A stretch of DNA of 28,292 bases from assembly GCA_004298675.1 (NCBI GenBank), contig SCRI01000076.1, positions 1-28,292 of the forward strand, given 5' to 3'. The first letter of the stretch is position 1. Every line of letters begins with the position of its first letter. The notes under the pieces are model-generated. The model worked only from the letters and a program-made list of their open reading frames with translations. It had not been told where the DNA came from and did not search any database. This stretch comes from a bacterium. GTDB lineage: Bacteria > Vulcanimicrobiota > Vulcanimicrobiia > Vulcanimicrobiales > SCRA01. Positions 7,063 through 10,580 of the stretch are shown piece by piece. A program made the translations under genes and the position numbers.

Positions 7063-7482
7063 TTACGTGCGGGCTTGGCCAACGCGTGAAAGGACCCCGT
7101 TGACGAAGCGGCCGGAGTCCGCCGTGGAGTACTTTTTCGCCAGCTCCACGGCCTCATTGATCGCCACGGCGCGCGGCGTCTGACCGTCGATCAACTCGTA
7201 GACCGCCATGCGCAGGATGAGGCGGTCGATCGTCGGCAGACGTTCGATCGTCCAGTCCTTCAAGAGCGGCGCGATCGTCTCGTCGCTGCGCGCAACGTGC
7301 TCGAGCGTCCCGAGCACCAACTGTTTCACGAACGGTTCCTGGCCGCGCGCGTTTGGCGTCTCGAACGCCTCCGTCAGCGCCTCTCCGGGATCGCGCCGCC
7401 CGACGTCGATCGCGAAGAGTGCTTGCAGCGCCGCTTCTCGTGCCTCCCGCCGCCCCGCCATGCCCAGCGCCCCGGCCCTCAA
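7063..7482 (-). CDS. nusB: Transcription antitermination factor NusB
   Basis: NusB binds boxA RNA together with NusE/S10 and supports antitermination of rRNA operons. The all-helical 139-residue product has the typical start MAGRREAREAALQALFA and the conserved later segments IERLPTIDRLILRMAVYEL and AVAINEAVELAKKYST, followed by GRFVNGVL. I chose the TTG inside the accC stop (TTGA overlap) because neighbouring genes use the same arrangement. An ATG at 7461, giving 132 residues, starts closer to the usual family N-terminus and is also possible. The accC-nusB order is conserved in many Terrabacteria. Confidence 0.95.
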   Translation of the reverse strand: MRAGALGMAGRREAREAALQALFAIDVGRRDPGEALTEAFETPNARGQEPFVKQLVLGTLEHVARSDETIAPLLKDWTIERLPTIDRLILRMAVYELIDGQTPRAVAINEAVELAKKYSTADSGRFVNGVLSRVGQART

Positions 7483-8846
7483 CGGGCTGCGGCCGCCTCC
7501 ACGCGCGCATCCCGCACGAGGAAGCGTGGCAGATATCCGATATCGACGCCACCGGCGAGATACTCCGGATCGGTGAGCACGTCGATGCAGAACGGGACCG
7601 TGGTCCGCACGCCCTCGATCACGGTCTCACGCAGCGCGCGCACCATCCGCGAGATCGCCTCCTGGCGATCGGCACCGTGGGCGACGATCTTCGCCAGCAT
7701 CGAGTCATAATAGGGCGGAACCACCGAGCCTTCGTACAAGTGCGTGTCCACGCGGATGCCGGGACCACCCGGGAGCTGTACGGTCTCGAGCGTGCCTGCG
7801 GCCGGGGCGAAATTGCTCGCCGGGTCTTCGGCGTTGACGCGCACTTCGATGGCATGTCCCTGCGCGTGCAGATCGTCCTGCGTGCGCGAGAGCGCCTCGC
7901 CGCGCGCGACGCGCAACTGCTCGGTCACCAAGTCGATGGAGAAGATCTCCTCGGTCACCGGATGCTCCACTTGGATGCGCGTGTTCATCTCCATGAAGTA
8001 AAAGCGCTCGCCGTCGCCGAGAAACTCGAGCGTTCCCGCGTTGACGTAGCCCACCGCCTTGACCGCTTCCCGCGCGACGCCGTAGAGCGAGGAGCGAAAC
8101 GCTGCGCTCAAGCGCGGCCCGGGAGCCTCCTCGATGAGCTTCTGGTGCGAAGGCTTTTGGATCGAACAGTCGCGCTCGCCGAGGATGAGGATGCCGCCGT
8201 GCGTGTCGGCCAGAACTTGCACCTCGATGTGGCGTGGATTGGAGATCAGTTTCTCCAGATACACGCGTCCATCGCCGAACGCCGCTTGAGCCTCGTTGCT
8301 GGCGGAGTTGAGGGCCTGCTCCAGCTCCTCCGGCGCATGCACGGCCCGCATGCCTTTACCGCCTCCGCCGGCCGTCGCTTTGATGAGGACGGGGTAGCCG
8401 GCTTCCGCCGCGAACGCGCGCGCCTGCTCCAGATTCTCGACGATGTCCGTTCCCGGCGTCACCGGTACGCCGGCTTCGACCATGATGCGCTTGGCCGTGG
8501 CCTTATCGCCCATGGCGCGAATGGCGTCGGGCGAGGGTCCGATGAAGGTGATGCCGTGATCCCGGCAGATCTCCGCGAAGCGCGCGTTCTCCGCCAGGAA
8601 ACCGTAGCCGGGATGGATCGCGTCGGCACCCGAGATCAAAGCCGCGGAGATGATGTTGGGGATGTTGAGATACGAGCGCGCCGAGGGCGCGGGGCCGACG
8701 CAGAAGGCTTCGTCGGCGCGCTTGACGTGCAGCGAATCACGGTCGGCCTCGCTGAATACGGCCACGGTGGGGATGCCGAGATCGTGACACGCACGATTCA
8801 CGCGTAACGCGATCTCGCCGCGGTTGGCGATGAGAACCTTCTTCAA
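7479..8846 (-). CDS. accC: Biotin carboxylase subunit of acetyl-CoA carboxylase
   Basis: AccC uses ATP and bicarbonate to carboxylate biotin carried on a biotin carboxyl carrier protein, the first half-reaction of malonyl-CoA synthesis. The 455 residues start with KKVLIANRGEIALRV. They contain the glycine-rich ATP loop KATAGGGGKGMR, the active-site segment FYFMEMNTRIQVEHPVTE, and the HQKLIEEAP motif. That motif is preceded by Lys-Pro-Ser, where E. coli has Arg-Arg, so there is one extra residue. The TTG start overlaps the stop of the AccB-like gene (TTGA) and has GAGG upstream. The protein looks fully active, but its adjacent carrier protein lacks the biotin-accepting lysine. Confidence 0.96.
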   Translation of the reverse strand: MKKVLIANRGEIALRVNRACHDLGIPTVAVFSEADRDSLHVKRADEAFCVGPAPSARSYLNIPNIISAALISGADAIHPGYGFLAENARFAEICRDHGITFIGPSPDAIRAMGDKATAKRIMVEAGVPVTPGTDIVENLEQARAFAAEAGYPVLIKATAGGGGKGMRAVHAPEELEQALNSASNEAQAAFGDGRVYLEKLISNPRHIEVQVLADTHGGILILGERDCSIQKPSHQKLIEEAPGPRLSAAFRSSLYGVAREAVKAVGYVNAGTLEFLGDGERFYFMEMNTRIQVEHPVTEEIFSIDLVTEQLRVARGEALSRTQDDLHAQGHAIEVRVNAEDPASNFAPAAGTLETVQLPGGPGIRVDTHLYEGSVVPPYYDSMLAKIVAHGADRQEAISRMVRALRETVIEGVRTTVPFCIDVLTDPEYLAGGVDIGYLPRFLVRDARVEAAAAR

Positions 8847-9283
8847 ACGTCAACCTCGATCCCGAAGAGGGGCTGTCCGTACTCGACGGGGTCACCGTCG
8901 CCGACGAAGACCTCCGCAATCGTGCCGGCGCGTCCCACACGCACGGGGTTGCGGATCCCCAGCGCCTCCACGTAGCCCAGCTCGCGGGCCGCGGCCACCG
9001 GCTGACCCAGCGCAGCCTGCGGACGGCTGACTCGGAACACGCCGACCACGTCCGCCGCAACCACGTCGACGGGGCGCGGTGCGAGCGCTGGAGCCTGTTC
9101 CGCCGCCGCGGCCACGTGCTCCGTCGCACGGCTGGGGCGCAAACGGCGCACGAACTCGAGGCCGAACTCTTCCTCGTCCACGGAGAGCCGCGTCAAATCA
9201 CTGTCGTCAAATGCCTGGAGCAGCGGACGCACCAGGCGTTCGATCTCTCCCTGCACGTCGATCTCGTCATTCTCACTCTGCAT
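8843..9283 (-). CDS. AccB/BCCP-like protein without biotinylation lysine
   Basis: The gene is in the normal accB position immediately before accC, with a 4-bp overlap. The 146 residues have BCCP architecture: an N-terminal helical part (residues 13-50, with IERLVRPLLQAF and SDLTRLSVDEEEF), an Ala/Pro linker (about 52-75), and a biotinyl/lipoyl-like C-terminal domain (about 75-146) ending in DPVEYGQPLFGIE, which closely matches BCCPs. The biotin site, normally Glu-Ala-Met-Lys, reads Glu-Ala-Leu-Gly at 106-109. The whole protein contains no lysine, so biotin cannot be attached. This resembles the plant BADC proteins, which are BCCP-like, lack the lysine and regulate acetyl-CoA carboxylase. A regulatory or scaffolding role towards AccC is inference. 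The reading frame is intact, so this is not an obvious pseudogene. Confidence 0.88.
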   Translation of the reverse strand: MQSENDEIDVQGEIERLVRPLLQAFDDSDLTRLSVDEEEFGLEFVRRLRPSRATEHVAAAAEQAPALAPRPVDVVAADVVGVFRVSRPQAALGQPVAAARELGYVEALGIRNPVRVGRAGTIAEVFVGDGDPVEYGQPLFGIEVDV

Positions 9284-10580
9284 CGGCTGGCTCGGCTTCG
9301 ACAGTCTCTTCCGCGCGCCCTGGAACGGGGTCGGCGACGACCACGCTCACATCAAAGTCGAGCACGTAGCGCCGATCTTGCAGCCACGCGCGCAATGAAT
9401 CGAGTCCGGCGGCGAAATCCTCCGGGGCCATCACGTGGAAGGTGGAAAGGAACTTCCCCTCCACGCGTTCCAGTAGACGCGCACCGTCCTGTTCCTTGCG
9501 AGTCCGCACGCGCTGCATCGTCACACGCGCAAAGCCGGCGTCGAGCAGCTCGCCGCGCAGCGCGGGCAGAGCCGGAAAGCGCGAGAGCTCGACGTCGAGA
9601 AACCCCGGAAAGATCCCGGCGAAGGGGTGCTCGCAGAAATAGCGATGCGAGAAAGTCGCGATGACCAGCGGACCGTCAAGGACGTCGCGCAGCCGGGCGA
9701 ACGTTTCGCGGCGCTCGCCTGCGCTGAGATGGTGGATCACGAAGAGGCTGTAGGCGGCACCGAAGTGCTGCTTGGGGATGCCCGCGGGGAGCCGCCCCTC
9801 CAGCCAATGCATCTCGGGCGCCTTTGCACGCGCGCGTGCCAGCATGGCCGGGGAGCCGTCCAGGCCCGTGACGGCGGAGCCGCGCGCAGCAAACCAGAGC
9901 GCATAGCGGCCCGTTCCACAGCCCACGTCGAGCAGGCTGGCAGGCCAGCCTGTGCGCACTCCGCACGCCGCCTCGACCGCTTCGGCTAGCAGCACCTCAT
10001 CCGCCGTGAGCGGTCTGAGGCGATCGTAGTCAGCCGCCGCCTCTTCGTAGTTCGTGCGTAACGCCCCGAGCATTCCGCGCGAGCGCTCCAACCGCGTGAC
10101 GCTCGCGCGCTCGCCCGGCGGCAGCGCCGTCGCCAACGCCGCCACGCTCGCGTTGTCGCGGGGATCGTTGAGGGACGGCGCGATCTCTAAGAGCGGCACG
10201 AGTGCGAAGGCGCGCTCGCGCAAGCGCGCATGAGGAACGTGCAGCTCCGGCTCCTCGACGGTGACGCCCTCGATCGCGAGGATGTCGACGTCGATGGCGC
10301 GCGGTCCCCAATGGTAGCTCCGTACGCGTCCCAACTCTTGCTCGACGCGCTTGCAGGCCGCCAGCAGCTCGCGCGGCGTCAGCGCGCTCTCGTAGAGCGC
10401 CGCGGCGTTGTAGAATTCCGGCTGGCCGGTCACCCCCCAGGGCCGGCTGCGGTAGAGGTCGGAGCGCCCGGTCAGCGCGCCGATCACCCGCATGCGCTCG
10501 ATGGCGGTATGAATCGCCCCCGGCGCATCGTCGAGGTTGGCGCCGAAGCCAAGCGCTACCCGGCGCAGCGCCTCGCTCAA
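9273..10580 (-). CDS. folK: HPPK (FolK) fused to a SAM-dependent methyltransferase
   Basis: Residues 1-155 are 6-hydroxymethyl-7,8-dihydropterin pyrophosphokinase (folate synthesis). They show the start VALGFGANLDD, PEFYNAA, the metal-binding DVD at 97-99 within WGPRAIDVDIL, and VPHARLRERAFALVPL. From about residue 172 to 435 the same frame continues as a class I methyltransferase. Its SAM motif is LLDVGCGTGRYALWF (216-230), followed by VTGLDGSPAMLARA and a specific C-terminal part. Its substrate is unknown. The start is a TTG inside the folB stop (TTGA); the open frame extends further upstream but only as an overlap with folB. An internal ATG at 10073 could give the methyltransferase alone, but no good ribosome-binding site precedes it. 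The 3' end overlaps the AccB-like gene by 11 bp. Confidence 0.9.
   Translation of the reverse strand: MSEALRRVALGFGANLDDAPGAIHTAIERMRVIGALTGRSDLYRSRPWGVTGQPEFYNAAALYESALTPRELLAACKRVEQELGRVRSYHWGPRAIDVDILAIEGVTVEEPELHVPHARLRERAFALVPLLEIAPSLNDPRDNASVAALATALPPGERASVTRLERSRGMLGALRTNYEEAAADYDRLRPLTADEVLLAEAVEAACGVRTGWPASLLDVGCGTGRYALWFAARGSAVTGLDGSPAMLARARAKAPEMHWLEGRLPAGIPKQHFGAAYSLFVIHHLSAGERRETFARLRDVLDGPLVIATFSHRYFCEHPFAGIFPGFLDVELSRFPALPALRGELLDAGFARVTMQRVRTRKEQDGARLLERVEGKFLSTFHVMAPEDFAAGLDSLRAWLQDRRYVLDFDVSVVVADPVPGRAEETVEAEPADAE

Follow-up and report, generated by a model that had tools for sequence, protein, structure and literature searches.

Within the window, a 28,292-nt stretch of bacterial DNA (contig SCRI01000076.1), a minus-strand run of genes comprises folP, folB, a folK–methyltransferase gene, a paralogue of the gene for the biotin carboxyl carrier protein (BCCP), accC, nusB and a PBP1A-like gene, the identities of folP, folB and the PBP having been assigned by eye from the translations. 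The order accB–accC–nusB is conserved in other bacteria, and the place before accC is the classical position of accB. The paralogue and its immediate neighbours are:

7063–7482, minus strand: nusB, the next gene after accC (PF01029, E=1.6e-32)
7479–8846, minus strand: accC, biotin carboxylase, 455 aa, TTG start, 4-bp overlap (8843–8846) with the paralogue stop (TIGR00514, 650.6 bits vs. a cut-off of 626.5)
8843–9283, minus strand: accC-linked, predicted non-biotinylated BCCP paralogue, 146 aa, no lysine (open reading frame, profile matches and orthologues)
9273–10580, minus strand: FolK (HPPK) and class I methyltransferase in one joint gene, with a 3′ end that overlaps the paralogue start (PF01288 and Methyltransf_25 in one frame)

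The genus relatives that were compared (L009/L011, L012 and L013) likewise have FolK and methyltransferase in one long frame. The paralogue itself is read from an ATG at 9283 to a TGA at 8845–8843, and the plus-strand frame over 8843–9283 was rejected as meaningless. Its product ends in GDPVEYGQPLFGIEVDV and has the following parts:

9143–9247, minus strand: N-terminal BCCP-type region, about residues 13–47 (hhalign; coordinates derived from residue numbers)
8855–9067, minus strand: biotinyl/lipoyl-like domain, about residues 73–143 (PF00364 at residues 86–142 and alignment with the true BCCP)
9023–9028, minus strand: point between S86 and R87 where the thumb is deleted, true BCCPs being 5 residues longer here (loop lengths and a 5-column alignment gap)
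8945–8968, minus strand: EALGIRNP, replacing the biotinylation hairpin EAMKMMNE (sequence; E106, L108 and G109 do not vary among the order's 90 sequences)
8957–8959, minus strand: Gly109 codon GGG (CCC on the plus strand) at the position of the biotin-accepting lysine (sequence, column counts and codon variety)

The initial annotation, made from the sequence, described a protein with the whole AccB layout, Glu-Ala-Leu-Gly instead of Glu-Ala-Met-Lys at residues 106–109, no lysine in 146 residues and a 4-bp overlap with an intact accC, and each of these points was borne out. Alignment of the paralogue family with the true BCCP family by hhalign runs from N- to C-terminus (142 columns, E=1.7e-16), and the biotinyl-domain fold is supported by a PF00364 match of 25.3 bits (cut-off 22.1). 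Against TIGR00531, the paralogue scores 56.2 bits (E=5e-15) where the cut-off is 115.2 bits, and thus does not qualify as a functional BCCP by the equivalog criterion. With the acceptor lysine absent, this cut-off missed and a thumb region of 12 rather than 17 residues, the paralogue is, judged on these sequence criteria, not a functional AccB. A structure predicted from the window protein and a single relative (L009) reached a mean pLDDT of 33 and was discarded.

The rest of the carboxylase is encoded in the same genome (3.03 Mb, 98.5% complete), which carries a true BCCP on another contig (C86, locus L003; 160 aa, motif EAMKMM), a single accC above the curated cut-off, namely the neighbour of the paralogue, one accD with accA adjoining (C68) and one birA. 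The earlier suggestion that the real BCCP, with an EAMKM motif, lies elsewhere was therefore correct: a paralogue occupies the accB position, and the working BCCP is encoded at another locus. By eye, the true accB precedes a gmhA-like gene in this genome and in three relatives inspected, and in the relatives represented by L145, L156 and L075 it follows a hisS-like gene, precedes hldE-like genes and is unlinked to accC. Among 26 true BCCP loci fetched, 25 lay away from accC; the exception is a second accB–accC pair in one genus member (G003, contig C292, L014), where a second BCCP (EVMKLMN) is followed by another accC-like gene, a pair absent from the window's own genome. Annotating by position, with accB expected before accC, hence mislabels the biotin carrier in this phylum.

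Orthologues of the paralogue were found in all four genomes of the genus (66–78% identity), none with lysine at the site. More broadly, the biotin-lysine column holds glycine in 90 of 90 paralogues of the window's order and lysine in 27 of 27 true BCCPs. The Lys-to-Gly change is thus fixed throughout the order, close relatives included; neither a lysine-bearing close relative nor a genome devoid of another BCCP, the two outcomes that had been named as refuting the initial annotation, was found. On this sequence basis, biotinylation of the paralogue at the canonical site is impossible in the order. The other sampled family of the class (f3, n=14) has lysine in eight and arginine in six members, and close relatives differ (lysine in G007, arginine in G008); such swapping indicates that the biotin-accepting lysine is not required there. 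The lysine-bearing copies (eight of 14 in f3, and G129) might be biotinylated. In f3 loci (L041–L054), the motif reads EAL[K/R]L or EAL[K]V, and the proteins have a C-terminal extension mostly ending in E-P-P-R-[ILM]. Other, deeper lineages show glycine, asparagine, serine or arginine at the site, and lysine once.

The total absence of lysine was given more weight in the initial annotation than it can bear. Orthologues of the order contain zero to four lysines each, and 25 of the 90 have none, so that “no lysine” is not a defining trait. Lysine makes up 0.74% of residues in the paralogues vs. 3.2% in the true BCCPs of the class, an about fourfold depletion that is perhaps due to avoidance of stray modification or to composition. 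By eye, the depletion is mostly in favour of arginine. Some neighbouring genes are lysine-poor as well (xseA 1.2%, recN 1.6%, accC 2.6%). We consequently gave no weight of its own to the complete loss of lysine, a residue that is scarce family-wide and in these neighbours too. Of the original argument that an intact frame devoid of lysine speaks against decay, the conclusion stands, on account of purifying selection, and the appeal to lysine loss does not.

The paralogue is under purifying selection: genus medians of dN/dS range from 0.11 to 0.36, Gly109 is encoded by all four glycine codons among the 90 sequences of the order, and V80, G81, R100, E106, L108, G109, V133, L139 and F140 are invariant in them. 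Full-length frames are conserved in about 100 genomes, and a pseudogene or decaying accB was rejected. The thumb region comprises 12 residues in all members of families f1, f2, f3 and f6 vs. 17 in the BCCPs of E. coli and of the phylum. Several deeper families have a thumb of normal length, and thumb loss is thus not general, representing a later or separate change.

In a tree built from all columns, one branch (SH-aLRT 90) separates the accC-linked paralogues from the true BCCPs, including E. coli AccB. When the motif and thumb columns were removed, the paralogues of the class (52 rows) grouped in one clade with support of 98/94 and its true BCCPs in a second with 100/100; one outer row (G139) moved, and some outer branches were long. 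This split places the duplication before the origin of the class. A single clade for all accC-linked copies was neither rejected nor proven (p-AU 0.53); from the sequences, the duplication is probably as old as the phylum.

Across 149 genomes of the phylum, 136 matched the paralogue query and 143 the true-BCCP query, each query partly retrieving the other family. About 120 loci from genomes across the phylum were fetched for neighbourhood comparison, and the paralogue adjoined accC on the same strand at all 122 loci tested, mostly at gaps of –8 to +48 bp (124 and 139 bp in two cases). Four deep-branching genomes with weak matches (ESMR, ESMN, ETVN and RCMN) likewise have a non-lysine copy just before accC, and the paralogue was missing from the search matches of five out of five tested genomes with merely weak ATP-grasp matches to accC (E 1e-4 to 1e-8). 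Beyond the phylum survey, a close-relative search of genome contigs returned the genus relative L009 alone, viral contigs yielded no relatives of the paralogue, and plasmids gave partial biotinyl-domain matches alone, mostly to ordinary BCCPs where annotated. Searches of a collection of open-access papers found no bacterial non-biotinylated BCCP, nor was such a protein found in the passages retrieved from a paper on the Chloroflexus acetyl-CoA carboxylase.

One carrier of the paralogue (G104, locus L030) is a single contig of 3,508,363 bases with two Photo_RC genes. Vulcanimicrobium alpinus, an anoxygenic phototroph, was the first cultured member of the Eremiobacterota (PMC9758169). The paralogue is probably carried by a cultured organism, and, if so, the gene would be open to study in a cultured host.

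Acetyl-CoA carboxylase is the enzyme at which carbon becomes committed to fatty acids. Judging from sequence conservation and gene position, we consider the paralogue to be, with somewhat better than even likelihood, a non-biotinylated structural or regulatory subunit of the AccC–AccB subcomplex, with an assembly role like that of plant BADC. A duplicated BCCP would have become a dedicated non-catalytic subunit of the heteromeric carboxylase that would be co-translated with AccC and whose retained BCCP surfaces may serve binding to AccC, pairing with the true BCCP, or both. It would fill those positions of the biotin carboxylase (BC)–BCCP subcomplex that need no biotin and set complex assembly or stoichiometry, as reported for plant BADC, so that biotin would be spent on catalytic copies alone.

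Restraint of the enzyme, the function that the initial annotation had placed beside a scaffold, is a doubtful alternative. As a negative regulator, the paralogue would compete with holo-BCCP for AccC, carboxylase activity falling with its expression. The same sequence facts can be read this way, as loss of the lysine with the fold core kept suits a competitor, and an inhibitory model of BADC exists in the literature (cited in PMC11926652). However, fixation throughout the phylum and a near-fixed proportion to accC, from overlapping or adjacent genes, fit a constitutive subunit better, and recent plant work opposes the inhibitory model (PMC11926652). With its fixed proximity to accC pointing to a subunit more than to a variable brake, a scaffold or assembly function is favoured over restraint of the carboxylase.

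A role in controlling the operon, the N-terminal region sensing the balance of BCCP and AccC and acting on transcription, would be in keeping with the retention of that region and with a position just before accC. E. coli AccB has been reported to autoregulate transcription of the acc operon. Such an autoregulator appears very unlikely here: it fails to explain why the biotinyl-domain core (E106, L108, G109, V133, L139, F140) is the most conserved part of the protein, and scans against Pfam and NCBIfam reported no DNA-binding family. Still less probable is a relic left at the old accB position when the active copy relocated, drifting since then and retained chiefly for its translational coupling to accC. 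The classical accB–accC position and the looseness of the site among deep lineages (G, N, S, R or K) would suit a relic; dN/dS well below 1, the invariant columns and the full-length frames argue against it, and a relic would not keep Gly109 via four different codons. An artefact of sequencing, assembly or a frameshift can be dismissed, given that independent assemblies, including the single-contig 3.5-Mb G104, carry the paralogue.

The preferred reading, a non-catalytic subunit of the AccC–AccB subcomplex, can be set against three known systems. With AccB/BCCP (TIGR00531), the paralogue shares domain order, length, linkage to accC and a C-terminal biotinyl domain; it differs in missing the acceptor lysine, scoring below the cut-off, having a shortened thumb and falling into a clade apart from that of the true AccB encoded in the same genomes. 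The epsilon or E subunits of actinobacterial acyl-CoA carboxylases (e.g. TfAcCCE) are, as is proposed here for the paralogue, non-catalytic assembly helpers of a biotin-dependent carboxylase (PMC7835884). TfAcCCE is a protein of 8.7 kDa that associates with the carboxyltransferase (CT)-bearing B subunit (PMC7835884), whereas the paralogue is BCCP-derived and linked to BC.

The closest parallel is with plant BADC proteins, non-biotinylated relatives of BCCP with 25–30% identity to it. They have been called a feature of the plant enzyme alone and are reported to promote BC–BCCP assembly as “glue” and to make contact with the BCCP thumb (PMC11926652). Their role is disputed between assembly and inhibition, the latter having also been proposed (PMC11926652). 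Like BADC, the paralogue is a BCCP homologue devoid of the biotinylation motif, in an organism that also has a true BCCP and BC; unlike BADC, it is bacterial, encoded beside accC and thumb-deleted in the window's class, and its interaction with BC and BCCP is predicted. In bacteria, it appears to correspond to the BADC-type non-catalytic subunits so far described as plant-only. At the biotin site, plant BADC reads “...Gln-Leu-Gly...”, resembling the EQLGIRNP of some paralogues. A more far-reaching reading strikes us as unlikely: that bacterial BC–BCCP complexes have required the paralogue as a third component since ancient times, and that it shares common descent with plant BADC, which would then have been inherited from bacteria instead of arising in plants. 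Under this reading, it may be hidden as “AccB” in other phyla. As a phylum-wide, accC-coupled counterpart, the paralogue would lend independent support to the usefulness of a BCCP position devoid of biotin, and would provide a simpler bacterial system in which to decide between glue and brake.
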